A stretch of DNA of 22,467 nucleotides, taken from positions 1-22,467 of the IMG/VR virus record IMGVR_UViG_3300020213_000121, one strand, 5' to 3'. Below the pieces are notes generated by a model. It did not search any database and was not told where the DNA came from. It worked only from the letters and a program-made list of their open reading frames with translations. Positions 109 to 18,605 of the stretch are shown here, one piece after another (position 1 is the first letter of the stretch; each line of letters begins with the position of its first letter). The stretch comes from a virus. The position numbers were made by a program, and so were the translations under genes.

Positions 109-218
109 ATAACCGAATCGGTCAAAGTAGTGGTTTCGGTTAAAGTGCTTGTAAAAAACTTCCCAAAAAAGGGCTTTCCGTAATGGGGTTTTATTGGGAA
201 TGTTCGGCCATGTCTCAT
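1..218 (-). CDS. Tail-type repeat protein, N-terminal part (runs off window)
   Basis: An open frame starts at the ATG at 216-218 and has no stop before the left edge, giving 72 visible residues. It opens with MRHGRTFPIKPHYGKPFFGK and then enters 18-residue repeats rich in Thr, Ser, Leu and Val. One degenerate unit (TSTLTETTTLTDSVIKTQ) is followed by a unit reading SRTLAETVSLTDTVIRTA and then most of another. No catalytic motif is visible. Its place at the end of a structural gene series and its repetitive, beta-prone make-up suggest a tail or fibre component, but this is inference. The start is 3 nt past the stop of the upstream gene and has no Shine-Dalgarno site; a TATCAT box lies 6 nt upstream. 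The C-terminal part is outside the window. Confidence 0.6.
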   Translation of the reverse strand, partial: MRHGRTFPIKPHYGKPFFGKFFTSTLTETTTLTDSVIKTQSRTLAETVSLTDTVIRTASRTLAETVSLTDTV

Positions 219-221
219 AAC

Positions 222-929
222 TTAATGATAGCTTGCCCTATGAATTGCTTGAAATACAAATTTGCTTTTGAAAAATAGCGTTGCCGCTGGGCTGCTAGTA
301 GGTTTAATGGCAACAAAGGCTTGAGCATGAGGTGATCCACCTCCCATATTATATGAGTGTGCTTGCGCTCCGGCTGACGTTCCAGCTTCCGAGGACACTC
401 TTGTATTTTCATAGCTTTGGTCAGTCAGGGTAGCATCTGCCGTCTGTCCAGTTCCCATGCCAGTTATACTTGCTTCCGAGCACAGTCCACCTATTAAAAA
501 ACAACTATCTGCATCAGTTGTAATACTCATGGCAGGTGCAAATCCATTTGCAGTATCACTATCTGGTGTTCCGTTTATTGGGGTTGTTGTGTCGGCTCCT
601 GACAAGCGATATACAGTTAGTGTTGACTCGTTTATACCACTAGCAAAGTCTGCTATTACGCTTGCGGTAGTAGCTGTTGGAGCGTTTAATCTCCAGATTT
701 CAATTCTATTTGGCTGTCCAGTTCCTCCACTGCCTCCCGCTGCTATTACCAGGGTAAAGGCTTCGGTGGTGTTGAACTTTACACTTGCCAATGGAAGATT
801 GTTTGTGTTGGAGTCTTGAGAAGTGCAAACGGCAATCAGTATGTCTCCTGCTGCGACTACTAATGAGGCAGCGGTTCTATCTCCACCTGAGCCTCTTTCA
901 CTAACCACCTGTTCTTTTACAATTGCCAT
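222..929 (-). CDS. Phage structural (tail-associated) protein
   Basis: A 235-residue protein rich in Gly, Ala, Ser and Thr, with alternating hydrophobic stretches typical of beta-sandwich fibre or tail domains (for example VVAAGDILIAVCTSQDSN near residues 24-41). It ends in a conserved-looking AFVAIKP segment near residue 205. No signal peptide, transmembrane helix or catalytic motif is seen. The last 25 or so residues (ATLFFKSKFVFQ and onward) look unlike the rest and may be a degraded or frameshifted end. It sits between the HNH gene and the repeat protein, 47 nt after the HNH stop. No Shine-Dalgarno site precedes the ATG; a TAAACT box lies 6 nt upstream. The exact virion role cannot be told. 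Confidence 0.7.
   Translation of the reverse strand: MAIVKEQVVSERGSGGDRTAASLVVAAGDILIAVCTSQDSNTNNLPLASVKFNTTEAFTLVIAAGGSGGTGQPNRIEIWRLNAPTATTASVIADFASGINESTLTVYRLSGADTTTPINGTPDSDTANGFAPAMSITTDADSCFLIGGLCSEASITGMGTGQTADATLTDQSYENTRVSSEAGTSAGAQAHSYNMGGGSPHAQAFVAIKPTSSPAATLFFKSKFVFQAIHRASYH
225..253 (-). promoter_or_regulatory. Possible promoter, -10 box 6 nt before ATG
   Basis: On the minus strand the -10-like TATCAT (225-230, 5/6 match) is followed by 6 nt and then the ATG at 218. The -35 position 17 bp upstream reads TTCAAG (248-253), only 3/6. The case rests mainly on the shared spacing with other genes in this window. It would give a leaderless transcript. Confidence 0.35.
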
Positions 930-935
930 GTGTTT

Positions 936-964
936 AGTTTACACGTTTACTAGCCATTTGAGAA
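936..964 (-). promoter_or_regulatory. Probable leaderless promoter
   Basis: On the minus strand TTCTCA (959-964, 4/6) is followed by a 17-bp spacer, TAAACT (936-941, 4/6), 6 nt and the ATG at 929. The expected start of transcription is the A of the ATG. Each box is moderate; the exact spacing repeats that of other genes here. Confidence 0.4.
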
Positions 965-976
965 GAATTACGAAGA

Positions 977-1591
977 TTAGATTTCAAGCCATAGACGACC
1001 TGAAAGTATTCTACCAATATTTACTTGCGAAACTTTATACATATCTGCTATTTTTTGCTGTGTCATTCCTGTTTTTCTGAGTTCTTTTATTTTCATAATA
1101 TCTTCCTTTGTGAGTTTAGCATTAGGGTTATTTTCCCCATCATGTAAAGCTCCTCTGCCTTTGTTTTCTTTATCTCTATTGTTGTCTGCTATCGTTCCTA
1201 GCCATAAATGTTTAGGATTTATGCAAGCTGGATTGTCGCACTTATGGCAAACTGCTAAATTTTGGTCAAATTCTCCATAAGCTAAAGTATATGATAATCT
1301 ATGAGCCTTAATCCATTTTTGCGGATTACGACTTAAAGATAGAAAGCCATATCCATATACTTCTCTTGCTCCTTTCCATTCCCAACATTCATCTTCTGCT
1401 TTTTTATCAACTTTCTTCCAAAAACATTCTTCTAATGAAAGTCTGCGTTTCCCAAAACTGGAACGTCTTTGACCTCTCATTCCAACTCTTGCACATCTAA
1501 CAGAACAAAATCTTCTACTTTCCCAGTATGCTTTTGTTACCCTATATTTAGGTGAGAAATTGTTTTCGCAAATCTCACATTTCTTTTCCAT
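977..1591 (-). CDS. Free-standing HNH endonuclease (homing type)
   Basis: 204 residues in three parts. An N-terminal zinc finger has Cys5, Cys8, Cys29 and Cys33. A central HNH nuclease of the HNH_3 type has the AHRLSY motif (His97) and CHKCDNPACINPKHLWLGT (Cys115, Cys118, Cys123, Asn125, His128). A C-terminal helix-turn-helix (about 160-200) reads like those that position homing endonucleases on DNA. Such enzymes nick or cut DNA to spread their own gene; no intron is needed. It lies alone between two structural genes with about 40 nt on each side, which fits insertion as a free-standing mobile gene. It has its own promoter, with TATAAT exactly 6 nt before the ATG and no Shine-Dalgarno site. 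Confidence 0.92.
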   Translation of the reverse strand: MEKKCEICENNFSPKYRVTKAYWESRRFCSVRCARVGMRGQRRSSFGKRRLSLEECFWKKVDKKAEDECWEWKGAREVYGYGFLSLSRNPQKWIKAHRLSYTLAYGEFDQNLAVCHKCDNPACINPKHLWLGTIADNNRDKENKGRGALHDGENNPNAKLTKEDIMKIKELRKTGMTQQKIADMYKVSQVNIGRILSGRLWLEI

Positions 1592-1597
1592 GTGAGT

Positions 1598-1626
1598 ATT
1601 ATATTATACTTCTACCAATATAACAA
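1598..1626 (-). promoter_or_regulatory. Leaderless promoter of the HNH gene
   Basis: On the minus strand TTGTTA (1621-1626, 4/6) is followed by a 17-bp spacer, a perfect TATAAT (1598-1603), ACTCAC and then the ATG at 1591. Transcription should start on or next to the ATG. A second TATAAT overlaps 5 bp upstream. Confidence 0.65.
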
Positions 1627-1631
1627 TATGC

Positions 1632-2132
1632 CTACACCTCGCATAAAACATAACAGTATGCATTAACTGCTGCTGCTGCGGTTACTCGAATCCTTAAAGC
1701 GCTATCAGCGTTTACCATAGGCTCTTGCCCTAGCGGATATTGTTTAATATATTGATTTGTTGGTGCCACTAATTGAGCATCAAACATTCTTGAGGCCGTA
1801 ATTGTCCCTTCTGAAGTGCAAGTGTAACCAGTTGCGGCGGTTCCAACCGAAAAATAAGTTGTTGAAACGGGGTTGTTTGGATTATCAAATTTAACAATGT
1901 CGGCAGCGGCAGCGGCAGTGACAGTTCCGAAAACGGTGCCGGTCTCCAGTAGCTCACATTTTATCGGGGCGGCGGCGGCCGATCCGTCGAAAGAAATGCC
2001 CCACTCGCGAATTTTAAATTGTAACGCGGTGATCCCCTTCATCTGAAGCAGAGTTTTTATTACAGTACCGGTAGTAACAACGACTTGGGCGGCGGTTGTT
2101 GGTGCTGCGCCGTTAGTGAAAAGATAAAGCAT
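1632..2132 (-). CDS. Phage structural protein, Ala/Thr-rich
   Basis: 166 residues, rich in Ala, Thr and Val. Landmarks are EWGISFDGSAAAAPIKCELL near residues 43-62, GYTCTSEGT near 102-110 and YPLGQEPMVN near 131-140. I know this pattern from small proteins encoded near head or tail genes of tailed phages, where the function is not established; no enzyme motif is present. The fold is probably all-beta. The ATG has no Shine-Dalgarno site but a strong promoter abuts it (TTTACA, 17 bp, TATTAT, 6 nt). Codons in the alanine runs are GCN-rich, giving small GC-rich islands such as that near 1965-1980. Confidence 0.7.
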   Translation of the reverse strand: MLYLFTNGAAPTTAAQVVVTTGTVIKTLLQMKGITALQFKIREWGISFDGSAAAAPIKCELLETGTVFGTVTAAAAADIVKFDNPNNPVSTTYFSVGTAATGYTCTSEGTITASRMFDAQLVAPTNQYIKQYPLGQEPMVNADSALRIRVTAAAAVNAYCYVLCEV

Positions 2133-2138
2133 AAATCA

Positions 2139-2167
2139 ATAATAGATTGTCTGTTTAGAATTGTAAA
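2139..2167 (-). promoter_or_regulatory. Leaderless promoter
   Basis: On the minus strand TTTACA (2162-2167, 5/6) is followed by a 17-bp spacer, TATTAT (2139-2144, 5/6), TGATTT and the ATG at 2132. It is one of the best examples of the recurring layout. Confidence 0.65.
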
Positions 2168-2177
2168 CTAGGGGGTA

Positions 2178-2818
2178 TTAAGCGGCTTTAACTTTCCAAG
2201 TTATTTGTAGAGAATCCCCGTTTACAACGTTAATTGCGGAAAATACTTGTCGACAAAGCAGTACACCAGAAGATGCGGCGTTTAATACGCCAGATTCGGT
2301 AACTGCAACGGTTCCGGTGACTGTGTACGTAAGCACTAATTGCGCAGTGTCATTTGTTTGGGTTGTAGTAACTCGGGAAGCACTCGCGGCAGCCCTTGAA
2401 AGTCCAGAGGCGGCCGTTTCGGTTTGTAAAGTGGTATCCGCGGCGGCGGCGGCGGTTGCACCGGTTCCCACTGCAACAAAAGTAAACGCAGCTTCAGCGC
2501 CCGAACCGTTGATTCGTGAAGCAACCCCAGCGAACCCAGCATTCGTAACAAGATTGGCTATAACCCTTGAATTTCCCCAATTTCCGGTTAAATAAGGAAT
2601 TCTTAAACCATAAGCGGCTAAATTGTTTAGAATACCGGCTTTAACTTTTCCGGATTTGTCAATGGGTTGGGGAATGTATTTTCTAATAAATCTTAAAATA
2701 GAAGTTCCGAGTTTATTTTCTGTAAAAAGGGGTTTAAGATTCCCGTCTCTGTCTTTTAAGACATACTCGACGTTTTCGTAAAGGCTAAACTGAGCGGTTC
2801 GTGTGGCTTTATTTTCCA
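2178..2818 (-). CDS. Phage structural protein with VGTGATAAAAAD motif
   Basis: 213 residues from the ATG at 2816-2818 (MENKATRTAQFSLYENVEY). The frame extends upstream for 22 more codons, but that part is an unlikely Lys-rich leader that would lie almost wholly inside the previous gene. The N-terminal half holds an NWGNSRVIANLVTNAGFAG segment. The middle has the sequence VAVGTGATAAAAADTTLQTE, a pattern I recognise from phage tail or fibre-type proteins. The C-terminal half is Thr/Val-rich and probably beta-stranded. Five consecutive alanine codons form a GC-rich trinucleotide run near 2442-2456. The start overlaps the end of the upstream gene by 10 nt, so translation is probably coupled. The role is inferred from context only. 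Confidence 0.7.
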
Positions 2819-3147
2819 TTTTCGTCTCTTTCTTCTTCAACTGTAGTATCTTCATTTGAAATTTCAAATCCTTCAAGTGCTTCAATTGTTTCGTTTGCTT
2901 GCGCTTCTGCCCTGTCCTTCTCGACGTTCGCTATTGCACTCTCTGATTCAACATTATAATTATTAACATACTTTTGCAAGACCTCTTTTATGGATTCTTC
3001 GGAATCGTCAAGGTCAAAAGCTAAACTTCGGCGTTCTGTCTTTGGCTCTTCGTCGTCACTAACAATATGAAAGTCGACTATTAACTTTTCTTTGCCTTCG
3101 GCTTGGAAATACTGACGGACAGAAGAAATCACTTTCAAAGTAAACAT
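2809..3147 (-). CDS. Hypothetical acidic protein, first gene after the glycosylation cassette
   Basis: 112 residues. The N-terminal half looks beta-stranded (MFTLKVISSVRQYF, then KLIVDFHIVS). The C-terminal half is strongly acidic with many Glu residues and reads as helical or disordered. I do not recognise a family. It is followed by, and overlaps, the VGTG-motif structural gene, so it may be a virion-assembly partner. It is preceded by the best -35/-10 pair of the left part of the window (TTGACA, 17 bp, AATAAT), whose -10 box ends 7 nt before the ATG. No Shine-Dalgarno site is seen. Confidence 0.65.
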   Translation of the reverse strand: MFTLKVISSVRQYFQAEGKEKLIVDFHIVSDDEEPKTERRSLAFDLDDSEESIKEVLQKYVNNYNVESESAIANVEKDRAEAQANETIEALEGFEISNEDTTVEEERDENGK

Positions 3148-3154
3148 TGAGTTA

Positions 3155-3183
3155 ATTATTGCCTTATTAAATTAGGTTGTCAA
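3155..3183 (-). promoter_or_regulatory. Strong leaderless promoter overlapping end of upstream gene
   Basis: On the minus strand a perfect TTGACA (3178-3183) is followed by a 17-bp spacer, AATAAT (3155-3160, 5/6), 7 nt and the ATG at 3147. The -35 box lies inside the last codons of the glycosyltransferase gene. It would restart transcription for the structural genes to the left. Confidence 0.7.
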
Positions 3184-4237
3184 GAAACGTTTTAACTTTT
3201 TCGGCATCGCTCGCAAAATCGACCGTGGCTTTGAAGTTCTTATAAACGTTCTGGCACAAGGTCTTATACCTTGACGGTTCAGAAAAATATCTGATTTTCT
3301 CGATTATTTCGCCCGGTGTCAGATTGTCAATATTAATACAAGTAAAGCCATCAATCATTAGTTTCTCGGCTAATTTTCCGTTGTAATAGGATTTTTTAAC
3401 AATAAGTGGCTTGCCCACCGCGGCACTATTAAAAAGAATGTGTCCAAAACCGTCCCCACCGGCCTTAGTATGCCAAATAAACATTGAATCACGCATAAAT
3501 TGCGCAAGTTGTTTTGAGCCGTGCGCCGCGCCATCGCGACATTGCCCGCCGAAGCTGCGAAAAGCATAGTCGCGTGTACGACCTTCAACCATTAAGAATT
3601 CTTGATAATCCGAAAAATGTTGAAAGACATTAACAAAGCTATAAATATTTTTAGCCGGCATTTCGACAATTTCTTCCGGATAAAAAATGTCCAAATCAAA
3701 CTCTTGGTGGTAGCTTACGAAATTAATACCATTTGGCACCCCAGAAATTAACGCGCTTGCCATAACATTCTTAATTGATCCGTCGTCCGGAATGTTCCAA
3801 GCGTTTCCGATTTGATAAATTAATTTGGGCTTGTTTGGGTGCGCCTCTACTAATTTGCGGAAGGGGGCGATATGTTGAGGGACTGAAGCAATCACAATAT
3901 CGAATTCTTGCTTCATAAACTCCGAAACCGTAATTGCTTTATTGTAGTAACCGCTGTCAATGTCTTGGCAATAATAAATCCCGGGTTCCGGATTAGGGAC
4001 GCCGACCGAAAATAAATTTAGGGGGGGCGTCCCGTCCTCCGGTCTATACCCCTGATCCAACGTGAGGTATTGCGCTCTCGTTGCGGGGTGATCGTAAATA
4101 GCCCAATATGCCAGGTTAGCCCAATCCAAACCGATTGGTCGGTATATCGAGCCATTAAAACGACCTTCAAATAAAAGGATTAAGGATTGCAAAAGCGACG
4201 CGTGGTGAAAGTCGGTAAAGACTTTAAGCTGTTTCAT
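3167..4237 (-). CDS. Probable GT-B glycosyltransferase
   Basis: 356 residues. The C-terminal part (about 252-285) has MFIWHTKAGGDGFGHILFNS followed by AAVGKPLIVKKSY, which resembles the nucleotide-sugar-binding end of GT-B glycosyltransferases (an 'Asn/Glu-x-x-A-x-G-x-P' type segment). The N-terminal part lacks a clear signature. It has no signal peptide or membrane helix, so it should act in the cytoplasm. It is the last gene of the glycosylation cassette and its start overlaps the end of the neighbouring GT-A-like gene by 14 nt, so translation may be coupled; no clear Shine-Dalgarno site is visible. The sugar and the acceptor cannot be read from the sequence. Confidence 0.65.
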   Translation of the reverse strand: MKQLKVFTDFHHASLLQSLILLFEGRFNGSIYRPIGLDWANLAYWAIYDHPATRAQYLTLDQGYRPEDGTPPLNLFSVGVPNPEPGIYYCQDIDSGYYNKAITVSEFMKQEFDIVIASVPQHIAPFRKLVEAHPNKPKLIYQIGNAWNIPDDGSIKNVMASALISGVPNGINFVSYHQEFDLDIFYPEEIVEMPAKNIYSFVNVFQHFSDYQEFLMVEGRTRDYAFRSFGGQCRDGAAHGSKQLAQFMRDSMFIWHTKAGGDGFGHILFNSAAVGKPLIVKKSYYNGKLAEKLMIDGFTCINIDNLTPGEIIEKIRYFSEPSRYKTLCQNVYKNFKATVDFASDAEKVKTFLDNLI

Positions 4238-4940
4238 GGTATTTTATAAAGTTCGTGGCGATTCTCTGGAAGTCCGCCTCTAGCGTTTCCGGCGGTAATA
4301 ATAAGCATTTTTTTAGATAAATGACGAATTCGTCAATCTTATGATTAGGCATTTGCCCTTCAAACATCAACCGGCAATTATGGCTTAATCCGGCCATGTG
4401 GTACCAGTATTTGGACTGCACGTCCCCTATGGGTTCACCTAAATTAATTAAGTCTTTTTGAATATGGCCAAAATGATCCCAGTAAGGCGGATTAGCCGAA
4501 AAGTTTAATGATGTTTTTTTAAGTATCTCGCGCCTCATAAGCAAAAAGCACGGGTGTAAGCGGGTGCCCTCATAAACCCCGATTACTTTATTCCCGGCAT
4601 TCGCTAACCTCTCCACTTCGTCCCAAAATCCGGGTTGAGGTATAAAATCTTGCTCTAAAAAGAGAATCCATTCTGAATGTAAAGAATTTCTTAAGGCGGA
4701 ATGAATCGCGACATTGCGCCAATCTTCGGTTGCATTATTAAGCGGGCTTGAATAAAAACAAAGTGCGCGTTGTTCAAATAAAGAGTCCTTAACAAATTGG
4801 GCATAATCATTGCCGTGGTTTGGTTCGGTAAAAACGATCAGTATTTCATTGAAGCGCGTTCTTTCATCTTTTAAGAACTTCCGAAATAACGGAAAGTCGG
4901 TATTCTTTGGCCAAGATATGAACACGTCAGGCGGCAACAT
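4224..4940 (-). CDS. GT-A-like glycosyltransferase
   Basis: 238 residues. EWILFLEQDFIPQPGFWDEV (about 90-109) has the hydrophobic strand followed by an acidic Glu96-Gln-Asp98 triad. This is the usual place of the metal-binding DXD motif of GT-A enzymes, which transfer a sugar from a nucleotide donor. Another hydrophobic stretch (NEILIVFTEPNHG, near 31-43) fits the first Rossmann-type strands. It is short but within the range of single-domain GT2-type enzymes. The gene begins 1 nt after the stop of the upstream gene, with AGGGA inside the end of that gene as a possible ribosome site. I am confident in the fold class, not in the sugar. Confidence 0.7.
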   Translation of the reverse strand: MLPPDVFISWPKNTDFPLFRKFLKDERTRFNEILIVFTEPNHGNDYAQFVKDSLFEQRALCFYSSPLNNATEDWRNVAIHSALRNSLHSEWILFLEQDFIPQPGFWDEVERLANAGNKVIGVYEGTRLHPCFLLMRREILKKTSLNFSANPPYWDHFGHIQKDLINLGEPIGDVQSKYWYHMAGLSHNCRLMFEGQMPNHKIDEFVIYLKKCLLLPPETLEADFQRIATNFIKYHETA

Positions 4941-4941
4941 T

Positions 4942-6212: not shown

Positions 6213-6224
6213 AATTCACCCCCT

Positions 6225-6575: not shown

Positions 6576-6600
6576 GTTCTTAATCACCGCCTTCCTTTTT

Positions 6601-7311: not shown

Positions 7312-7510
7312 ATTGTTTTTTTGTCGGCTTCAACCAACCGACTAAAATCATTAAAGCAATATTCATAATAACCGCTATCCAAAGAGTGATTGGCTTGAAC
7401 CCAAAATAAGCAGCCAAAGTATTCCAAAAAAACATAGTTATAGCTGTCGAGATCAGGAAGGCACCTGTAAAAATTGCTAAAATAAAGATTCCTGAAAAGA
7501 ATAGTTTCAT
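7298..7510 (-). CDS. Small two-helix membrane protein
   Basis: 70 residues from the ATG at 7508-7510 (MKLFFSGIFILAIF). Another ATG three codons upstream abuts the predicted -10 box and would lie before the expected transcription start, so I prefer the second. Two membrane helices are clear: about residues 3-31 and 40-60 (LWIAVIMNIALMILVGWL), followed by a Lys-rich tail. No motif identifies it. Small membrane proteins in sugar cassettes can be anchors or flippase-like factors, but I have no evidence for either. It has its own promoter in the end of the upstream gene. Confidence 0.65.
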   Translation of the reverse strand: MKLFFSGIFILAIFTGAFLISTAITMFFWNTLAAYFGFKPITLWIAVIMNIALMILVGWLKPTKKQYGRN

Positions 7511-7519: not shown

Positions 7520-7548
7520 AGTTTAAGTATTTGTTCGCAATTTGTCAA
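7520..7548 (-). promoter_or_regulatory. Promoter inside end of glycosyltransferase gene
   Basis: On the minus strand a perfect TTGACA (7543-7548) is followed by a 17-bp spacer and TAAACT (7520-7525, 4/6). The expected transcription start near 7513 lies about 3 nt before the ATG at 7510, so the mRNA would be nearly leaderless. Confidence 0.5.
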
Positions 7549-8736: not shown

Positions 8737-9850
8737 AACCCCCCTTTTCTATCTCTTCTAGTCTTTTAGCCATGAGTTGTCCGACGGCATCAAAGCTAAA
8801 TTTCTTTATCACGGTCAATTTGCCCGCAAGACCAATTTCTTTGGCTATGTCTTGGTTCTCATAAGCAAACCTCATTTTTTCCCTTAGTACCAGTAAGTCA
8901 CAGTTTGCCCACTTTTGATCCGGTGTGTACCACTGCCGGTTTCTTGAGTTATCGACTAGAGGGATCAACTCATAAGGCACTAACAATGCGTCTTTCTGGT
9001 CGGTCAAGTATTCGTGAATTCCGCCGCAATCGGTTGAAATAATCGGGTGACCGGTTAACATTGCTTCCATTTGGGGAATTCCCCACCCTTCGCCTCGGTG
9101 CGCCGAAACGAAGCAATCGAAAGTGTTGTGAAACCGGTATATTTGGTGCCTGTCCATTAAGTTGGTGTAAATCTTTACTTCCGCATATCTGGGCAAGTTT
9201 AACTTTAATTTGATTTGGCGAATCATTATGGTGATCTCTTTCTTCTTCTCCGGCGTGAAGTTGTCAACGTAAGTCTTGAGGCACAATAAAACGTTTTCGT
9301 CGTTTTGGAATTCCCGATAATAAGCCTCCATCAAAGCCCCCGGGTTTTTGCGCTCCGTCCACTCAAAGATTGAATAAAATTTATATTTATCTACTTCCGG
9401 AATGATATAGGGGTCGGCTTTCGGGGCTATAATGTCGATTGCTTCCGGGATTATATATATCGGCTTCGTGACCCCCGCATTCCGCATAGACTGCTTGTTA
9501 AACTCGCTTCCCGTCCACAATTCGTCCATTAATTGCAAGTTAATAGCGAAATCAAGCGGCACTTTGTCGGTTTCCCAAAAAGCTCGACCAATGTGATACT
9601 TTTGCGGTTCCATGTACATTTTATAAACGTTGGGGGTAGTGTGTAAAATTTGGATTTTATAAGGAATATCGTTTTCTTGAAAGCCCACCGCTAAATCGCC
9701 TAATCGCCCGAAGTCGGCAATTTCCAGCGTGTATTTCGGGATTTGGGTTTTAATATTCACACCGGCCGAATGAAGCGCGGCTATATCATGCCTGCTTGCT
9801 TCACCATATCCGGAATAGTCGGTGGCCGGTGAAGTATATTTTATATTCAT
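8717..9850 (-). CDS. Glycosyltransferase family 4 (GT-B)
   Basis: 377 residues. Near the N-terminus SPATDYSGYGEASR (7-20) is the glycine-rich loop of GT4 enzymes that faces the acceptor. FYSIFEWTERKNP (158-170) opens the second domain. HRGEGWGIPQMEAMLTGHPI (251-270) holds the E-x7-E motif (Glu254, Glu262), followed by STDCGGIHEYL. These enzymes transfer a sugar from a nucleotide donor with retention of configuration. No membrane segment. It lies 4 nt after the zinc-ribbon gene. The similarity in plan to the 409-residue enzyme suggests old duplication or joint recruitment. Confidence 0.9.
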   Translation of the reverse strand: MNIKYTSPATDYSGYGEASRHDIAALHSAGVNIKTQIPKYTLEIADFGRLGDLAVGFQENDIPYKIQILHTTPNVYKMYMEPQKYHIGRAFWETDKVPLDFAINLQLMDELWTGSEFNKQSMRNAGVTKPIYIIPEAIDIIAPKADPYIIPEVDKYKFYSIFEWTERKNPGALMEAYYREFQNDENVLLCLKTYVDNFTPEKKKEITIMIRQIKLKLNLPRYAEVKIYTNLMDRHQIYRFHNTFDCFVSAHRGEGWGIPQMEAMLTGHPIISTDCGGIHEYLTDQKDALLVPYELIPLVDNSRNRQWYTPDQKWANCDLLVLREKMRFAYENQDIAKEIGLAGKLTVIKKFSFDAVGQLMAKRLEEIEKGGYDTRPS

Positions 9851-9854
9851 GTTT

Positions 9855-10055
9855 CTAGTTTATTTCAATGTAATTCTCGGCTTTGACCGGCTGATCTTTG
9901 CCGCAAACTTGACACTTAATATCACCTTTGTCCTTCTTGTCGCTTGTGACTAGTGCGGTGTTGGTGCAAGCTTCGCAAAAATAACGGAATTTGGGCTTTG
10001 ATTCTTTGGGTTCTTCTTTTTTAGGTTCTGCAACCACGTTTTCTTCGTTTTTCAT
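9855..10055 (-). CDS. Small zinc-ribbon protein
   Basis: 66 residues. A Lys/Glu-rich N-terminal tail is followed by FCEACTNTALV (Cys at about 28 and 31) and IKCQVCGKDQP (Cys at about 48 and 51), a two-knuckle zinc ribbon. It could bind nucleic acid or a protein; the sequence does not say which. A good ribosome site (GGGGTGAT) precedes the ATG. A weak promoter (TTAAGA, 17 bp, TATTAT) lies just upstream and would give a leader of about 17 nt. It sits between two GT4 genes. Confidence 0.65.
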   Translation of the reverse strand: MKNEENVVAEPKKEEPKESKPKFRYFCEACTNTALVTSDKKDKGDIKCQVCGKDQPVKAENYIEIN

Positions 10056-10107: not shown

Positions 10108-11316
10108 TACATTGTGGAGAGGCTTTTGGCTTGAGGGGCTTGCCATTAAGTCTTCAAAGACCTTTTTTAAGGCTAAAGCAGTTTTTGCAAAAGTGTAGCG
10201 CTTAACATATTCAGATGCTCTTTTACCCATTTGGAGGGCTTCGTCTTGATGTTCGTAAATATAACGCATTTTTTTTCTAAGATCGGAAATATTAGAGACA
10301 TACATTTTTCCCACGTCTTGGTTCTTATATTTGGAATAAAGCGCCGGGCAATATTGGATTTTACCGTCGTCACCCCGCACCGAAACTTCATACATATATT
10401 CACCATTGAAATATTCGCTTATACCGTGGGCGTTCGGCACAATTGCGGGCAATCCGGTTGCCATTGCTTCAAGTGGCGTCATTCCGAAACCTTCACCTCT
10501 TGACGGATAAACAAAACAATCGGCTTGCCCGCAAAGTTCGGCTAACTTTTGATCCGGGATTGATTCGTTAATAATCTCAACGTTGGGGTACATATGTTTG
10601 GTGATAGGCAAGGGGATTGCCCCACGTAAGGTGGTTTTTAAGACTAATTTAACCGGCTCATCTTTTCGGAACTCCTTATTGAAAGCCGTCCATACTTCGG
10701 GAAATCCTTTGCGAATATTGAATGCGTTGTAATGCAAAAAAACGAAGTCTTTGCGGGCTTGGCGCTTGTTTTCCCTTGGAATGAATTTAAAAACCTTGTC
10801 GTCATACCCTAAGGGCACAACGGTAGTCTTAAAGCCGGCTTTTTGAAATACCGATTGGCACCAGTGAGAGGGGACAATGATCAAATCGGCGGCCTCTAAA
10901 TAATCTTTCCAATCGTCGGGTATTTTAGTTGATTCAAACATTGTAAAAATAACCCGGAGTGGGGTTTCCATGCGCAAAATCGAATACGGGTTGTGAAATA
11001 AGACACCCAACCGTTGCCCCTCATTGTGAATTGAAACCGGCATTCCTAACCCCCGAAGCTCCGATATAAGCCGATCAGAAGCGATACCGTAACCGTCTTT
11101 TCCACCCTGGCTAACAGTTGCCAGATAAATCCCCTTAGAAGAATCAGTCAAACTTAGCGCTTCCCGCTCCCCGGCTTCTGCAAGGCGTTCAATTTTGTAA
11201 TTCTTTTCTTCGGCTTCCGATATTCTTTTAAATTGGGGGTTAGCGTCGAGTTCGGAGGCTTTTTGTGGATCGTCAACTTGAACAATCCGGCCACCCGGGT
11301 TAATGAAACAGGGCAT
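10087..11316 (-). CDS. Glycosyltransferase family 4 fused to a short phage-type N-terminal domain
   Basis: 409 residues. Residues 61-400 are a GT-B enzyme: GIYLATVSQGGKDGYGIASD (62-81) with the glycine loop, LIIVPSHWCQSVFQKAG (145-161), and YPSRGEGFGMTPLEAMATG (270-288) with the E-x7-E motif (Glu275, Glu283), followed by ISEYF. Residues 1-55 (MPCFINPGGRIVQVDDPQKA and a charged helix) are not part of a normal GT4 enzyme. They resemble the short 'Val-Asp-x-x-x-Ala' segments of small phage proteins, so this looks like a fusion. It is the first gene of the cassette, 90 nt after the capsid gene, and is driven by a strong leaderless promoter. No signal peptide or membrane helix. Confidence 0.9.
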   Translation of the reverse strand: MPCFINPGGRIVQVDDPQKASELDANPQFKRISEAEEKNYKIERLAEAGEREALSLTDSSKGIYLATVSQGGKDGYGIASDRLISELRGLGMPVSIHNEGQRLGVLFHNPYSILRMETPLRVIFTMFESTKIPDDWKDYLEAADLIIVPSHWCQSVFQKAGFKTTVVPLGYDDKVFKFIPRENKRQARKDFVFLHYNAFNIRKGFPEVWTAFNKEFRKDEPVKLVLKTTLRGAIPLPITKHMYPNVEIINESIPDQKLAELCGQADCFVYPSRGEGFGMTPLEAMATGLPAIVPNAHGISEYFNGEYMYEVSVRGDDGKIQYCPALYSKYKNQDVGKMYVSNISDLRKKMRYIYEHQDEALQMGKRASEYVKRYTFAKTALALKKVFEDLMASPSSQKPLHNVLRMESV

Positions 11317-11322
11317 CTAACG

Positions 11323-11351
11323 AATATACAACAATTGCTTAACGGTGACAA
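11323..11351 (-). promoter_or_regulatory. Strong leaderless promoter of the glycosylation cassette
   Basis: On the minus strand TTGTCA (11346-11351, 5/6) is followed by a 17-bp spacer, TATATT (11323-11328, 5/6), CGTTAG and the ATG at 11316. The expected first base of the mRNA is the A of the ATG. It lies right after the capsid terminator, so the cassette is an independent unit. Confidence 0.7.
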
Positions 11352-11360
11352 CTAAGCACC

Positions 11361-11389
11361 AAAAAGCCCGAAGTTTGAACCCCGGGCTT
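11361..11389 (-). terminator. Rho-independent terminator after the capsid gene
   Basis: On the minus strand AAGCCCG (383-389 of the 11 kb block, that is 11383-11389) pairs with CGGGCTT (11364-11370) across a 12-nt loop, followed by a run of T. It is 17 nt after the capsid stop. Confidence 0.85.
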
Positions 11390-11405
11390 AATGGCTAGAA
11401 AAATA

Positions 11406-12320: not shown

Positions 12321-12395
12321 TTGTAATTTCACCCCCTCTCAAAGTGGCATTAATAAACAAAGTAAAGTGGGGTTAAGTTCGCCGTAAGGTGGGGA

Positions 12396-13040: not shown

Positions 13041-13083
13041 ACTTCGTTTTTTGCGTCGAACGTCGACGGTATTGCTAGAGTCA

Positions 13084-13112
13084 ATTATTAACTGCTTATT
13101 AATATTTGTCAA
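13084..13112 (-). promoter_or_regulatory. Promoter for scaffold and capsid genes
   Basis: On the minus strand a perfect TTGACA (13107-13112) begins right after the minor-capsid stop, followed by a 17-bp spacer and AATAAT (13084-13089, 5/6). Transcription near 13077 gives a leader of about 38 nt to the scaffold ATG, which includes a small hairpin (CGTCG pairing with CGACG). It would raise capsid output above that of the terminase and portal genes. Confidence 0.6.
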
Positions 13113-14000
13113 CTATTGGCTTTTAATCGACGCACCGGGTGCGCCATACCCTTTAATTCTAAAATCATAAGCCCGGGTTTTTGTCGCAAGTTCGAGATTT
13201 ATAACGTTAATGGCATGTTTGCAATTTGGGTGCAATAAACCGGCGCTTTTGGCGTCGTCGAGTGTTTTATACCCCGGGGTATTTCCTGTTAAAGACACTA
13301 TTTGTCCTTCCCAAACGGCACATTCTTCGTGGCTTGAGTTATGCCGGGACACTTGAACCAAATCATAACCGTTTTGCAACATGCGGTCTTCAAGCCCACG
13401 GTTTCTTGCCTCGACCGCTTTGGTGCGAATAAGCATTTCGGAATACCTATCTAAAGTCCATGAGTGACCACCCTTATCAACCAACGCGTCAAGCCCTTGT
13501 TCTCTTAGGGTTGATTTGATAGCTTTGCCAATTGCTTTATTAGTTGAGCCTTGGATTGTGCCGGTTGCTAGTTGTTGGGTGATTTTTTCTTTTGTCGCCC
13601 GTGACATTAATAGTCTCGCACTCCGGTTAACACCGGTTAAGGATTCGCCAAAAGCTTCGGCGGTTTCGGACACTAAAGCATCAATGGCTAAATGATTGAC
13701 TTTATTTAATCCGGCCGCTAATTCAACATTTGCCCCAACTGATTTTAATTGATAAGCAGCATCATCAACACCGGATTGATAATAGTCCGGTATTTCTTGT
13801 TCGATAAACCTTCCAACGTCAGCACCTAACTCGGTTAAGATGCCCTCAATCTGTGCGAGTATTGCCCGGCGATTTGCTACCCCCCAATCGGTCGCGCTCT
13901 CAATTTCGGCAACGATTTGTTTATAGGCATTTTTATACACGGTGGTAAGTCTGGCAATTTGGGTTTCATTTACTCGAACTTCAAGGGGGAAATGTGACAT
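13113..14000 (-). CDS. Minor capsid / head morphogenesis protein
   Basis: 295 residues. The helical N-terminal two thirds would lie along the portal. The C-terminal part YDLVQVSRHNSSHEECAVWE, then GQIVSLTGNTPGY and GLLHPNCKHAINV (about 212-266) has the pattern of the phage minor-capsid-2 / SPP1 gp7-like families, with His220, Cys227, His257, Cys260 and His262 able to bind a metal. It follows the portal gene by 7 nt and is the normal fourth member of the packaging cluster. No toxin domain is fused to its end. Such proteins enter the procapsid with the portal and may help DNA ejection. Confidence 0.88.
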   Translation of the reverse strand: MSHFPLEVRVNETQIARLTTVYKNAYKQIVAEIESATDWGVANRRAILAQIEGILTELGADVGRFIEQEIPDYYQSGVDDAAYQLKSVGANVELAAGLNKVNHLAIDALVSETAEAFGESLTGVNRSARLLMSRATKEKITQQLATGTIQGSTNKAIGKAIKSTLREQGLDALVDKGGHSWTLDRYSEMLIRTKAVEARNRGLEDRMLQNGYDLVQVSRHNSSHEECAVWEGQIVSLTGNTPGYKTLDDAKSAGLLHPNCKHAINVINLELATKTRAYDFRIKGYGAPGASIKSQ

Positions 14001-14007
14001 AGCACAA

Positions 14008-15597
14008 TTATTTTACAACTTTTGGCGGCAATTGAGGATTAGGTTTTGCGTTAGGAGTTATATCAGGCGGCCCAACCGGTTCCCCTTCTTTATCAAATAA
14101 CCCCTTCCCGATCCCTTGTGTAACCACGTTTATTTTTGATTCTTCTTGAATCTCTTTTGCTTTTTCTTCCGCCTCATCTTCGTCAAGCCCATCAATCCTA
14201 ATTAAGGAATCCTTAATCGTTGAAAGTCCGCCGTCAATCCTCTTTACTTCAGTGTCTACTTGCTCGCTTTCGTCAATCGGCAATCCGTCAAACCATTTGA
14301 TTTGGGGGCGGGTTGGTTCGCCTTTAAGTTTGATGTTCTTGTCGGTAACGCCAACGTTCCAAGCCTTGGCCAGTTGTTGGGCGACATAAATAAGATCTTT
14401 TAACCGCATATCGTAATAAGTCTTTTTGCGGGCGGCTTTGGCAAGCGTGCGCATGATCTTCATTTTTAAAGCCCGGCCTGAGTCGGATTGACCCTGCCCC
14501 ATACCCACAACGTCCGGGGATATCTCCCCAATCATCATTAAAAACTCAACCGTTTTTTCGATCTCTTTATAGGCGTTTTCAAGGGAAGCGTCCCAAACGA
14601 TGTACTCAGGCTTATTGTTTTCGCCGTCTTTGACCTCAATGACCCCTAACGCACTCTTTCTTACTTTGCCGTTTTCGTCAAGTATGCCCTCTGGCAAAGC
14701 AAGTATAGGGTCGGAATGCTTATCTAAAATGTTATCAATTTTAGTCATTCGGTTGTTTAAAGCAAAAAATAAGGTGTCAATGTCTTGGTAGTCAGATATA
14801 CCCAAATAGCGGTTGCCGGTTTTCCAATTAGGGATATGAAAGAGAAGTGAGCGAGTGACACCGGTGTTTTGCATTTCCGGGATAGATTCGTCACCTAGTA
14901 TCGAAAGCGGGGCTTTCGTTATGATTCTTTCATGGTCCATCTCCCAAACCTCATTAATAATTTTGCCGGGGTAGTGGATTTCCTTTCTTAAATACTTCTT
15001 CTTGTCGATGTAAAAAGTCCATGCTAACTCTTCGTATTCCGGTTTTGCCCGAACATTCCATTGATTAATCTTTGGGAAGTAAATGGTTGGGGTAATGTCT
15101 TCAATGATTATGGTGGCGAATTTGTCACCGGGGTTCCGCTTGCCAATCCTAAGCTTATAAACCGCATCACCGAAATAGGAGTTTGAAAGTGCGGATTCAT
15201 AATTTTGAATATGTAAATTGTTATCCTCAATAAGCCCATCAATAAAGTCTTGGTCGCCGTCTTGGCCCGCTTTGAACTTGGGGGGTTCGGTAAATAATAA
15301 ATCTGCTACAACCTTAGAAATAAACCCCGGGAAGTTTACCTTGACATACCTTAGCTTTGCATAAGCCGCATTAAAATCGCTATCATTGACCCGGACGTTA
15401 AACGCTTCAAAGTGTTGCCCTATAAACAACCTCTCGAAATATTCGTAATCGGATAATTTAAGCCTTTGGGCAAGTGTGGGGAAAACAGGGTAAAGGGTTG
15501 GGCTAGCAACCGTTGGTGCGTTACCTTGGGTTTGCTTAACGTTTCCGTCTGTCGCGGGCATTCCGCCGGGTGGTTGAGGATAATTATCATCTGCCAT
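14008..15597 (-). CDS. Portal protein
   Basis: 529 residues. The N-terminal region YEYFERLFIGQHFEAFNV (51-68) and NFPGFISKVVADLLFTEPPK (88-107) match the entry of SPP1 gp6-like portals. A central 'wing' is rich in beta strands. GQGQSDSGRALKMKIMRTLA (367-386) and KKTYYDMRLKDLIYVAQQLA (391-410) form the crown-stem helices seen in that family. The C-terminus is Pro-rich (NPQLPPKVV). The length is normal. Portals form the 12-mer ring at one vertex through which DNA enters. It lies 39 nt after terL and 7 nt before the minor capsid gene. No clear Shine-Dalgarno site; a weak -35/-10 pair (TTGTTA ... TTTTAT) precedes it. Confidence 0.9.
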   Translation of the reverse strand: MADDNYPQPPGGMPATDGNVKQTQGNAPTVASPTLYPVFPTLAQRLKLSDYEYFERLFIGQHFEAFNVRVNDSDFNAAYAKLRYVKVNFPGFISKVVADLLFTEPPKFKAGQDGDQDFIDGLIEDNNLHIQNYESALSNSYFGDAVYKLRIGKRNPGDKFATIIIEDITPTIYFPKINQWNVRAKPEYEELAWTFYIDKKKYLRKEIHYPGKIINEVWEMDHERIITKAPLSILGDESIPEMQNTGVTRSLLFHIPNWKTGNRYLGISDYQDIDTLFFALNNRMTKIDNILDKHSDPILALPEGILDENGKVRKSALGVIEVKDGENNKPEYIVWDASLENAYKEIEKTVEFLMMIGEISPDVVGMGQGQSDSGRALKMKIMRTLAKAARKKTYYDMRLKDLIYVAQQLAKAWNVGVTDKNIKLKGEPTRPQIKWFDGLPIDESEQVDTEVKRIDGGLSTIKDSLIRIDGLDEDEAEEKAKEIQEESKINVVTQGIGKGLFDKEGEPVGPPDITPNAKPNPQLPPKVVK

Positions 15598-15636
15598 ACT
15601 TAATAAAATATTATCCTATCCATTGTAACAATACAA

Positions 15637-17232
15637 TCAAAAGCCTGTCGGCTTAACTGCGAAGATTCTTGGTCGGTCTCTATACATTTTAATCATTTGA
15701 ATGGCTACGAATCCCCCAAACAAGGCATCATCAAATTTTCCGTCGGCGTGCTCCCTCTTTCCGTTTTCCTTTTTAACGAAAGTCTTCATTTCACCTAACG
15801 TTATCCGACTGTTGATTTTCGAGTGGGATTCTTCAAAAAGCTTTATAAAATCATCTATCATAACGTCCCGGCTTTTTGAATCAGTCCGCCACCCTAACTT
15901 CTTAGTCCGCCTAGTGGTGCGTTCGTCTATTGTGGTTGTAAAGTAGTAATGATCATAAATCTTAGATAATTCAAGTATAAAACTAAGCATATTGTTTTCA
16001 ACGCCGATATACGCCCCATTAAAGAAGTTACAAACCCTTGCGGCAATTTCCGCCCCCTCATCAGGTCTAATTTTCCCGTAATATTGCGCCACCTGTTCGA
16101 TGCCGTCTTTATCCCAAATATCGATATCGGTTGAGTCTGCGCCATTGCCATCTGAAGGATCAACACCAACAACGTATTTCTTCCCGGGGCTTGGTAGTTT
16201 CCAGAAGACAAAACCGAGCTTGTTTAAAGAGATGAACTCTTCGTAAATTTCCGGTCGGTTTTCCTTAACCCACTGATTGGGTATTGGGTTTCTAGGCTTA
16301 ATAGAATCCACTAACTCGGCATCAAAGATATTGCCGGCACCAGATTGAAAAGCTTGCAATTTGGTTGCCGGGTATTCTTGAAAAAACAATTGCAATCCGG
16401 ATAGCCCTAAGTGTGATTTGCTTGAATCCGCGGATAATTCCCGGATTTTCCAACGTCGCCACAATAACTGCCCATCACTTAATTTATAAAGTGCCTTATC
16501 CCTTGATTCGTCACCATAAAGCAATTTGTCATCTGGTGTTGGAATGGGTAAAGTGCCTGGTAACGTATATTCCGGATTTTCCCACCAAGCGTAAAAATAG
16601 GTTTTATAATCCATCTCACCAATTCTGTCCTTTGGGATTGCATCGAATAATTGATAAAAGTCATAAAAATGATTAAAACCATGGCCGGTGGTTTCTTCAC
16701 TGATCCGGCCGGTTAGGGGCACCGCTTGTTTTGTTGCTGCATTTAATGCTTGCCTGTCCTTAATCCAAGCCGACTCGGTAATATGTAAGTTGTGAACCGT
16801 GCCACCCCTAACATCAATGGTTACAAAGATTGACGAATCAAGCGCTGCCCCGTCAAATCGGGTCGTAAAGTCGTATCTGTATTTTGTATTAGTTTTCGTT
16901 TTTGGCTGAAGTTGGGCGGGTAGGTTCTCGAAAGCGCGTTCAACAATTTGGAAGTATTCCGGCAGTTTTTTGGCTTCATGCGCCACAATGGCAGAAACGT
17001 TACCAGACACCCAAAGTGATTCGTCGAGTAGATCAATCGCGTACAAGGTCGTCATTCCGAATTGTCGGGCTTTTAGAATAGCGCTATAGCGTTGACCGCC
17101 CCGCTCTTGAATATGTCGAAGTTGAATTAAATTAGGAACAAAAGTAACGATGTCCCCGCTTTTAGTCCTTATTTTGTACAGGTGTGTTAACCGCCACGCC
17201 TTGTCCTGCAATCGTGGATCCAAGTTTTTCAT
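15637..17232 (-). CDS. terL: Terminase large subunit
   Basis: 531 residues, the usual size. LTHLYKI (15-21) and FVPNLIQLRHIQ (31-42) lead to the ATPase P-loop KARQFGMTT (54-62), a Walker A variant typical of TerL. The Walker B strand LHITESAWI (149-157) carries Glu153, and ISEETTG (177-183) is the coupling motif. The C-terminal nuclease has VVGVDPSDGNG (354-364, Asp358), GVEN (410-413, Glu412) and FDDALFGG (500-507). All key residues are present, so it should pump DNA into the procapsid and cut it. The start overlaps the small-subunit gene by 71 nt, but the N-terminal motifs need this start. Confidence 0.96.
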   Translation of the reverse strand: MKNLDPRLQDKAWRLTHLYKIRTKSGDIVTFVPNLIQLRHIQERGGQRYSAILKARQFGMTTLYAIDLLDESLWVSGNVSAIVAHEAKKLPEYFQIVERAFENLPAQLQPKTKTNTKYRYDFTTRFDGAALDSSIFVTIDVRGGTVHNLHITESAWIKDRQALNAATKQAVPLTGRISEETTGHGFNHFYDFYQLFDAIPKDRIGEMDYKTYFYAWWENPEYTLPGTLPIPTPDDKLLYGDESRDKALYKLSDGQLLWRRWKIRELSADSSKSHLGLSGLQLFFQEYPATKLQAFQSGAGNIFDAELVDSIKPRNPIPNQWVKENRPEIYEEFISLNKLGFVFWKLPSPGKKYVVGVDPSDGNGADSTDIDIWDKDGIEQVAQYYGKIRPDEGAEIAARVCNFFNGAYIGVENNMLSFILELSKIYDHYYFTTTIDERTTRRTKKLGWRTDSKSRDVMIDDFIKLFEESHSKINSRITLGEMKTFVKKENGKREHADGKFDDALFGGFVAIQMIKMYRDRPRIFAVKPTGF

Positions 17233-17659
17233 AGTTTGTTCTAGGCTTATCTAAGTTATCAAGCATAACACCGACGGATTCGGGGTCAACTTGTGCCGTT
17301 TCAAATCGATTAACAAAAAATGGTTGAGCGCTTCGGTGTTTCTCGCTGAAGTGCTTCATGGTATCAATCTCTTCCCTTGTAAGCGTTAAATCTAGTTTTT
17401 GCTTGGCAATTATCCGCATAATCTCCTTATAAAAGAACTCATTCACTAATTCACCCGGTAATTTTCGCCAATTATTTATTTTTTCGGAAAACCAATCGCC
17501 TCGCTTGTACTTTACATAAATGGTGTCTTTGTGTTGATACAAGTCGGCTTTCTCTACAGCGTATCCGATTGTATTACCCGCTTTTAAGAACGGCTCTAAG
17601 TCCCTAAGCCAAGTTTCAAACGTCGCTTCCGTCGTTGGTGGTCTGCCGTTATTGTCCAT
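17162..17659 (-). CDS. Terminase small subunit (probable)
   Basis: 165 residues directly upstream of terL. The start MDNNGRPPTTEATFETWLRD followed by KAGNTIGYAVEKADLYQHKD (27-46) is a 'GRP' arm plus a helix-turn-helix of the kind that small terminases use to recognise the packaging site. The middle is helical and charged and would form the ring; the tail after about 140 is flexible. It overlaps the terL start by 71 nt, an unusually long overlap in which one DNA stretch codes both the TerS tail and the TerL head. AGGAAGG upstream is the ribosome site. The assignment rests on position and the N-terminal domain. Confidence 0.75.
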   Translation of the reverse strand: MDNNGRPPTTEATFETWLRDLEPFLKAGNTIGYAVEKADLYQHKDTIYVKYKRGDWFSEKINNWRKLPGELVNEFFYKEIMRIIAKQKLDLTLTREEIDTMKHFSEKHRSAQPFFVNRFETAQVDPESVGVMLDNLDKPRTNYEKLGSTIAGQGVAVNTPVQNKD

Positions 17660-17861
17660 TTTCGTTTTCCTTCCTGTAAAGAAGTACCATTGTTATTGAA
17701 GTATCCCCATCTTTATCCTTTTTTGAGACACCGGAAGCCGACACTTTTAAATCAAGAAAATCTTCGGTTACTAATCCTTTTTGATCCATGAATTCGTTAA
17801 TGTCCTTTTCGATTTTCGCCGGATCGTTCCCAGTGAATATTTTAATCTTTAATCTACGCAT
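17649..17861 (-). CDS. Hypothetical small protein
   Basis: 70 residues. The order is a strand (RLKIKIFTGND), a helix (IEKDINEFMDQKG), then two strands (LDLKVSASGV and TSITMVLLYRK), a compact alpha/beta plan also found in small uncharacterised bacterial and phage proteins; I cannot name the family. It overlaps the small terminase by 11 nt, so it is in the same operon. A perfect TATAAT lies exactly 6 nt before its ATG and no Shine-Dalgarno site is visible. Confidence 0.65.
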   Translation of the reverse strand: MRRLKIKIFTGNDPAKIEKDINEFMDQKGLVTEDFLDLKVSASGVSKKDKDGDTSITMVLLYRKENENGQ

Positions 17862-17867
17862 ATTTCT

Positions 17868-17896
17868 ATTATAGCCTTAATGGCTTTTACTCTGTA
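17868..17896 (-). promoter_or_regulatory. Probable leaderless promoter
   Basis: On the minus strand a perfect TATAAT (17868-17873) is followed by AGAAAT and the ATG at 17861. The -35 position (17891-17896, TACAGA) is poor, so strength is uncertain. It would drive the terminase and portal genes. Confidence 0.5.
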
Positions 17897-18048
17897 ATAC
17901 CGTAATATTTATTACAACGAACTGGAAAATCAATCGGGCTGTAATCGGCGCAGGAGTTTTGACCGAATCCGGTAACAATAAGAAGTCCTGGTAGTAAAAC
18001 CCCGAAACAGATTGCAATGGCTAGTATTAGTAGATTTTTTTTAAACAT
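17887..18048 (-). CDS. Small membrane or exported protein (53 residues)
   Basis: 53 residues starting MFKKNLLILAIAICFGVLLP, a Lys-led hydrophobic segment running to about residue 27 that is a signal peptide or membrane helix. A short polar end follows (GFGQNSCADYSPID and on), with two Cys at about residues 34 and 44 that could form a disulfide outside the cytoplasm. Its ATG shares one base with the TAA of the upstream gene (TAATG), a typical coupled start, which supports it as real despite its length. Function unknown; small membrane proteins next to packaging genes have no fixed role. Confidence 0.6.
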   Translation of the reverse strand: MFKKNLLILAIAICFGVLLPGLLIVTGFGQNSCADYSPIDFPVRCNKYYGITE

Positions 18049-18347
18049 TAGTGTCTTTTTGGATAGAATAAATCAGGTGGGGGCGTTAGCTCTTGGCCTT
18101 CCGGCTCAATGCCCATTTGCTCCATTATGGTTTGAGTTTCCACAACTACCGCCTCGAAAATAACTTCCTTAAACCCTTTGTCCGCGAAAGCATTAACTAC
18201 CATCGCTTTGACATACCTTTTGTCTTCCGGGTACATCGTAATCTCTATTTTACCGTCGGCCGTTTGAATGACCGTTAATAGCGCAGTTGGCAATGGTTTT
18301 TTATTTGCTAATAAATCGGCTGTCGTTGCTTTGGGGTGTTTATCCAT
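18048..18347 (-). CDS. Hypothetical protein
   Basis: 99 residues. The middle, ALLTVIQTADGKIEITMYPE followed by DKRYVKAMVVNAFADKGFKE, suggests an alpha/beta fold; the C-terminus is Pro-rich (ELTPPPDLFYPKRH). No motif that I recognise. The start overlaps the previous gene by 8 nt and the end overlaps the next by 1 nt, so the three are one transcript. It belongs to the early part of the packaging operon. Confidence 0.65.
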   Translation of the reverse strand: MDKHPKATTADLLANKKPLPTALLTVIQTADGKIEITMYPEDKRYVKAMVVNAFADKGFKEVIFEAVVVETQTIMEQMGIEPEGQELTPPPDLFYPKRH

Positions 18348-18570
18348 GATTTGGCTTATTAAATACTGGCTCGTTGTTTTTGAGGATTCCTTCTATCTCT
18401 TCTTCAATTTCCCTTAACGACTTAACTATTGCCATGTTGCCATTGGAAGCCTCAAGCCCCAAAGCGATGCCGGATAAGCAACCTTGAATATAAGCAAGCT
18501 TTGACCAATCAGTAACAAGTAAGTGCCCGTGTGGATTCTTTGTCGTGGGTTTCCCTATATCTGTCGACAT
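18340..18570 (-). CDS. Hypothetical protein, first gene of the head operon
   Basis: 76 residues from the ATG at 18568-18570 (MSTDIGKPTTKNPHGHLLVT). An ATG 14 codons upstream is open in frame but would add a Phe/Tyr/Leu stretch (MPIVFVLYLFYICF) that is a translation of AT-rich direct repeats, so I reject it. The body is mostly helical (LAYIQGCLSGIALGLEASNG, then MAIVKSLREIEEEIEGILKN). No known motif. The start has no Shine-Dalgarno site and lies 6 nt after a TATATT box, so it may open a leaderless operon that runs through the terminase genes. Confidence 0.6.
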   Translation of the reverse strand: MSTDIGKPTTKNPHGHLLVTDWSKLAYIQGCLSGIALGLEASNGNMAIVKSLREIEEEIEGILKNNEPVFNKPNHG

Positions 18571-18601
18571 AAAACAAATATAAAACAAATATAAAACAAA
18601 A
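18571..18601. repeat. 11-nt AT-rich direct repeats
   Basis: On the plus strand AAAACAAATAT occurs at 18571-18581 and 18582-18592, and a partial third copy follows at 18593-18601. They fill the space just before the first gene of the head operon and could bind a regulator. Confidence 0.75.
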
Positions 18602-18605
18602 ACAA
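18577..18605 (-). promoter_or_regulatory. Candidate leaderless promoter built of direct repeats
   Basis: On the minus strand TTGTTT (18600-18605, 3/6), a 17-bp spacer and TATATT (18577-18582, 5/6), then TGTTTT and the ATG at 18570. The boxes lie in 11-nt direct repeats, so a chance match is more likely here than elsewhere. Confidence 0.4.

Follow-up and report, generated by a model that had tools for sequence, protein, structure and literature searches.

In the minus strand of a 22,467-base virus fragment (IMG/VR record IMGVR_UViG_3300020213_000121; G+C 41.9%), here referred to as the window, a number of start codons are preceded by a hexamer that resembles a bacterial −10 element and ends exactly 6 nucleotides (nt) before the ATG. 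In sigma70 systems transcription starts ~7 nt after the −10 element, i.e., a promoter at this position would place the first base of the transcript on the A of the start codon. The question raised by this locus is whether these hexamers (gap-6 boxes) are promoters of leaderless mRNAs and, if so, why they are found together with genes that carry a Shine-Dalgarno (SD) site. From the data discussed below, we consider it highly probable that the phage infects Patescibacteria (also named candidate phyla radiation, CPR) and that the hexamers are sigma70/sigmaA promoters of the host type, from which leaderless mRNAs are made.

Hexamers at a fixed distance from the start codon

An Escherichia coli −10 matrix was scored at each distance from 0 to 40 nt upstream of the gene starts, which were called simply as the first ATG, and matches above 5 bits were classified as strong. 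A strong match was found at gap 6 before 7 of the 33 called starts and before none at gap 5 or gap 7. The background was on average 0.33 starts per gap at gaps 14−40 (binomial p = 3.6e-8 for gap 6), and no distance other than gap 6 was enriched. Dinucleotide shuffling (2000 replicates) gave 0.33 such starts on average and 3 at most, i.e., none reached 7. The result held with the threshold set anywhere between 2 and 5 bits (two window genes were left at 6 bits), a set of hand-picked starts behaved in the same way, and a box at gap 6 was found before none of the 112 internal in-frame ATGs of the window. None of the gap-6 genes had a strong SD site, compared to 7 of the 33 called starts, which agrees with the claim of an earlier note on this DNA that the genes with a box lack such sites while others have strong ones. 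The scan over all distances against shuffled sequence had been proposed in the same note, and the outcome that would have refuted the proposal according to that note, a score at this spacing no higher than in shuffled or intragenic sequence, was not observed; with gap 6 alone enriched, the observation is confirmed as real and far above chance.

The same arrangement was found in two other sets of sequences. A search with the capsid protein yielded 20 IMG/VR contigs at 58−99% identity and one distant match, and a search with a glycosyltransferase added more; a gap-6 box is present before 47 of 518 starts in 32 related contigs (p = 5e-33). The second set consisted of stretches of two metagenome-assembled genomes (MAGs), described below, and 39 other genomes of the CPR phylum (41 in all). 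Here, gap-6 boxes precede 13 of 161, 27 of 333 and 28 of 442 starts (p = 2e-9, 4e-14 and 7e-14, respectively; 68 of 936 in total), and 7−12% of the starts in these stretches have a strong SD site. These CPR counts are probably lower bounds because the start calls were crude and operon-internal genes were included. The share of starts with a gap-6 box is thus 21% in the window, 9% in the relatives and 6−8% in the CPR genomes, with ~1% at each of the other gaps.

The boxes were selected by hexamer and distance alone, and equally good hexamers inside genes served as the comparison set. A TGn motif precedes 26% of the boxes in phages and 49% in CPR genomes, compared to 5% inside genes, and similarity to the −35 sequence TTGACA peaks at a 17-bp spacer (p = 2e-6 and 4e-4). 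The base at position −1 is a pyrimidine in 93% of the phage gap-6 matches, but in 63% of other starts. A strong SD site was found in 0 of 122 gap-6 genes and in 39 of 246 genes with a −10-like box elsewhere. Furthermore, the signal is almost exclusive to ATG starts, being observed in phages before 54 of 551 ATG codons and 2 of 201 GTG, TTG and CTG codons.

These features bear on the possibility that the hexamers occur by chance in A+T-rich upstream DNA that is kept unstructured for SD-less translation, i.e., that no promoter is present. Many genes without an SD site are translated by means of a local lack of structure, as described in PMC3121790, and a composition bias near the ATG is visible in our data at gaps 0−1. 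Composition, however, yields neither a one-base-wide peak at gap 6 (the shuffled sequences gave only the 0.33 matches mentioned above) nor the TGn motif, the 17-bp −35 peak, the −1 pyrimidine and a signal specific to ATG as the start codon. We regard this explanation as very improbable.

The control set comprised lambda, E. coli, Paenibacillus phage Tripp, Thermus phage P23-45 and Deinococcus MP1. With the same detector the single match in lambda was cI, which is the classic leaderless gene. E. coli gave 0 of 169 and Tripp 1 of 68 starts at gap 6, the latter phage having strong SD sites at 50% of its starts, and the Deinococcus MP1 plasmid gave no match at the matrix threshold among 40 genes, a sample too small to show a peak. 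Leaderless phage transcripts occur in Thermus. In the Thermus phage phiYS40 the pattern TANNNT was found at gap 6 before 8 of 59 starts, with 1.3 expected, while P23-45 served as a weak positive control (3 of 78 at gap 6). The latter signal plausibly fits a phage with its own RNA polymerases, as described for P23-45 in PMC10770324.

Conservation by gene and the individual boxes

The box is kept although the upstream DNA has diverged greatly among the relatives. Orthologues of the gene starting at 11316, a glycosyltransferase and the first gene after the capsid gene, have a box at gap 6 in 10 of 30 cases and at gap 5−8 in 13, and none has a strong SD site. A gap-6 box was found in 9 of 20 portal orthologues and a strong one in 7 of 26 orthologues of the minor head protein, but in 0 of 30 capsid orthologues, 18 of which have a strong SD site. 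Taken together, the portal, minor head protein and 11316 families account for 26 of 76 starts, compared to 6 of 240 in all other families (Fisher test, p = 5e-13). The choice between leaderless and SD-led expression thus appears to be gene-specific and conserved, with the features of leaderless genes at the portal, minor head protein and one glycosyltransferase, and a strong SD site at the capsid gene. The phage gap-6 genes are also found at a median distance of 39 nt from the upstream gene, compared to 17 nt for others (p = 0.005), and 4% of them overlap that gene, compared to 30% of others; wider spacing and rarer overlap are expected for genes that are transcribed from individual promoters within a co-directional array.

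All seven boxes described in the earlier note are present on the minus strand, and in each case exactly 6 nt separate the box from the ATG. Five of these are the stronger calls: TATAAT at 1598−1603 (ATG 1591, an HNH endonuclease; 7.1 bits), TATTAT at 2139−2144 (ATG 2132; −35 TTTACA at 2162−2167, spacer 17), TATATT at 11323−11328 (ATG 11316; −35 TTGTCA at 11346−11351, spacer 17), TATAAT at 17868−17873 (ATG 17861; 7.1 bits) and TATATT at 18577−18582 (ATG 18570; 5.7 bits). For 1591 and for 2132 one relative each was found, which shares the gap-6 box. The other two, i.e., TAAACT at 936−941 (ATG 929; 5.0 bits) and TATCAT at 225−230 (ATG 218), are weaker; the latter precedes a tail repeat protein that runs off the window end, an edge open reading frame outside the count of 33 genes. 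Two gap-6 boxes were absent from the earlier note. One of these, the −10-like TAAACT at 9857−9862 (ATG 9850, a glycosyltransferase; 5.0 bits), is also a weaker call and may be a chance match because its orthologues do not share it (0 of 29 with a gap-6 box). The other is AATAAT at 14007−14012, upstream of the minor head protein gene (ATG 14000), which scores 3.8 bits; some orthologues have TATAAT at the same place.

At two further genes the spacing differs. The −10-like AATAAT at 3155−3160 (−) is found 7 nt before ATG 3147, as had been claimed, and scores below the 5-bit threshold, but is supported by a perfect −35 TTGACA at 3178−3183 with a 17-bp spacer. The gene at 7510/7519 has a −35 TTGACA at 7543−7548 (−) and, again at a spacer of 17, a −10-like TAAACT at 7520−7525, which abuts ATG 7519 and lies 9 nt before ATG 7510. 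The predicted transcription start is therefore ~3 nt before ATG 7510, in line with the earlier note, the −35 boxes of which were all located, also those at 2167 and 11351. Alternatively, AATACT lies at gap 6 from ATG 7519. This gene would have either a very short leader or none, and its start codon is uncertain.

Cases such as 3147 and 7510, in which the start could be displaced by a few nt, raise the possibility that the promoters are real, but that the transcripts begin at another position or translation begins at a codon further downstream, such that the mRNAs are leadered. The start codons are predicted, and in the CPR genomes an excess is seen also at gaps 7−11. On the other hand, most homologues begin at the same codon when the proteins are aligned, the distance of ~7 nt from the −10 element to the transcription start in sigma70 systems fits the ATG, and the −1 pyrimidine marks the A of the ATG. 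We consider leadered mRNAs very unlikely. The proposal of the earlier note, i.e., sigma70 promoters that start on the A of the ATG and are mixed with SD genes, is strongly supported by the comparative data and by the independent promoter features.

The probable host and a proposed mode of expression

An alignment of the terminase was searched against one genome per species for 84,980 species in GTDB. Only two relatives were found, both in MAGs of Patescibacteria, at 57% and 49% identity, of which one belongs to Gottesmanbacteria (Microgenomates). The gene order in both MAG contigs is the same as in the window, and a sample of 380 Patescibacteria genomes yielded one further distant terminase match. 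A search of the GTDB genomes with the capsid alignment found no relatives. On the basis of these sequence comparisons, the host very probably belongs to Patescibacteria. A Firmicute host, suggested by a portal match to Paenibacillus phages, was rejected because the portal is 34% identical and the start signals differ. Membership in the SPP1-like portal siphophages of Bacillota (Tripp group) was also rejected; the window is not close to this group, and the starts of Tripp are rich in SD sites.

A comparison of the window with the 380 CPR genomes returned two phage contigs, weak short matches and a tRNA-Ser segment, with no spacer array shown. The segment corresponds to a tRNA-Ser-like sequence at 22111−22218 (−) with intact acceptor stem, D-arm and T-loop, and an aberrant anticodon and variable region. 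It shares its first 26 nt without mismatch with tRNA-Ser genes of many CPR genomes, which is a second, independent indication of a CPR host; no match was found among 50,697 phages or 72,556 plasmids, and neither ARAGORN nor Rfam calls a tRNA in the window. The sequence may act as a decoy or attachment site, or may represent a degenerate tRNA.

The proposed mode of expression is as follows. With the −10 element, sometimes accompanied by TGn and/or a −35 element at 17 bp, at positions −12 to −7 relative to the start codon, the host RNA polymerase would start on the A of the ATG to yield mRNAs with a 5′-AUG. These mRNAs would be translated by recognition of the 5′-AUG, either by 70S particles (a mechanism reviewed in PMC9031893) or led by initiator tRNA, rather than by SD pairing. 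Patescibacteria would express a sizable share of their own genes leaderless and the phage would do likewise, with the mode fixed for each gene. The genes for the portal, the minor head protein and the glycosyltransferase behind the capsid gene, together with a number of small or mobile genes, would be leaderless, with promoters that sit inside the co-directional gene array, and the abundant capsid protein would be made from a leadered SD transcript. Because the leaderless genes have no SD site, they would be poorly translated from polycistronic read-through RNA, and each would therefore probably depend on its own promoter, which would set the output and timing of that gene.

The earlier note had also suggested that the phage may select for 70S-type initiation or for a host condition. 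A phage-specific strategy of this kind, which exploits a special infection or host state (70S-rich, stressed cells), could be reflected in the higher share of strong matches in the window than in the CPR genomes. The excess of the window over its relatives, however, rests on seven genes, and the same architecture is observed in ordinary genes of the host phylum. Such a strategy is unlikely, and no special infection state is needed: the mix of genes most simply reflects the ordinary expression style of the probable host. That such a mix would be unusual for a phage holds in comparison to lambda and Tripp, but not to phiYS40, in which the TANNNT excess at gap 6 is comparable.

The closest known systems are found in both phages and bacteria. 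Transcription of lambda cI from PRM likewise involves a box (TAGATT) exactly 6 nt before the ATG, but this is one gene in an otherwise leadered genome, whereas the window has at least seven in 22 kb. Neither phiYS40, which shares the excess at gap 6, nor P23-45 was recovered among the relatives of the window. So-called TA-led leaderless genes are described for Actinobacteria, Deinococcus-Thermus and others (Zheng et al. 2011, PMC3160421); in these genomes TANNNT/TATAAT is found ~12 nt upstream of the start codon alongside SD genes, and a TG extension is seen in Lactococcus, as in boxes of the window type. The window genes share the following sequence properties with this class: a −10 element at a fixed distance above chance, no SD site, an AUG start and other sigma70 features. 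The passages of that study consulted here treat neither Patescibacteria nor phage genomes; the trait described here is found in a family of CPR phages, where it is conserved gene by gene, and in a sample of CPR genomes. In Deinococcus, a −10 element adjoining the open reading frame, with a spacing requirement, was found experimentally to drive leaderless expression (PMC12340547), in that case of cellular rather than phage genes.

Several points weigh against the interpretation presented here. The transcription starts are predicted from sequence alone and the start calls are crude; the related contigs are non-independent samples, i.e., the counts are not fully independent; and the absence of SD sites is in part forced by geometry, as the −10 element occupies the SD zone. 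The box at 9850 lacks support from orthologues, and those at 929, 17861 and 18570 have no orthologues for comparison. Both MAG contigs contain phage genes only, so that the link to the host rests on binning, where an error is possible.

The architecture itself is known from many bacteria, and leaderless transcription is predicted in 21.6% of bacterial species in a survey cited in PMC9581028; the lineage, Patescibacteria and their phages, appears to be new. No report of leaderless genes in CPR or their phages was found in literature that covered few subscription journals, which leaves priority unproven, and the CPR-phage literature examined does not mention promoters or leaderless genes. According to PMC12641178, YchF, which has been tied to the translation of leaderless mRNAs, is retained in CPR. 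Very few Patescibacteria are in culture, so that knowledge of promoters and gene expression in this very large bacterial group is scant; from the sequence data, leaderless transcription is predicted for an appreciable fraction of CPR genes and for defined phage genes. Annotation of gene starts is affected, as tools that expect SD sites may misplace such starts, and the question arises how the reduced CPR ribosomes initiate on 5′-AUG mRNAs. We tentatively suggest that many genes are expressed leaderless throughout the phylum Patescibacteria, and that the phage genomes specify separately for each virion gene whether its mRNA carries a leader, a choice preserved across deep divergence. The portal and minor head protein genes would lack a leader, and the capsid gene, with its SD site, and the scaffold gene, with its conserved leader hairpin, would have one. 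This might be a translation-mode code for virion stoichiometry that is adapted to these ribosomes.

Probable leadered genes and other features of the window

Nearly all window genes are carried on the minus strand, in the order terminase, portal (SPP1-type), minor head protein, scaffold and capsid, followed by a glycosyltransferase block with a methyltransferase and then by tail-like proteins and the HNH endonuclease. The SD site of the major capsid gene (gagagggg; start 12332) is found at 12333−12345 (−). The promoter of the leadered scaffold/capsid transcript, at 13054−13112 (−), has TTGACA at 13107−13112 and AATAAT at 13084−13089, and is followed in the leader by a hairpin (CGTCG-ACGTT-CGACG, 13054−13068), CAAAAAACGAAGT and ATG 13040. 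The hairpin and A-rich tail recur in relatives at the place corresponding to 13040−13112 (L005, L010-L012, L014, L016, L017, L030, L033, L036, L038, L042, L048, L051 and L055), where the leader consists of a sigma70-like promoter, a short hairpin, AAAAAACGAA and the ATG, mostly without an SD site. Variants of the hairpin include GTGG-ACTTA-CCAC, TTGG/CCAA and GCGG/CCGC, and covariation is suggestive (score 0.283, compared to 0.143 after shuffling; 4 of 500). The region is possibly a regulatory leader of the scaffold/capsid transcript.

The words (T)AGGGGAGTG / TGGGGGAGTG are found in the window at 18652−18661 (−) and 18731−18739 (+). In relatives (L008 17152−17220, L012 18980−19051, L014 17451−17513, L025 7558−7627, L027 16045−16060 and L033 11009−11082), they are repeated on both strands of one intergenic region, often upstream of the g4237 gene, and may form an operator, an origin or a packaging element.

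Immediately behind the capsid gene, at 3167−11316 (−), glycosyltransferase-like genes and an O-methyltransferase form a block, the order of which is conserved within the phage family as well as in the two CPR MAG contigs, and which suggests glycosylation of the virion or the host surface. A tandem pentapeptide repeat protein of NTGN type (PF01469) is encoded at 21416−22084 (−) by a near-perfect DNA repeat. At the opposite end, at 1−218 (−), the gene that is cut off by the end of the window contains a 60-nt direct DNA repeat, which encodes TETVSLTDTVIRTASRTLA repeats.

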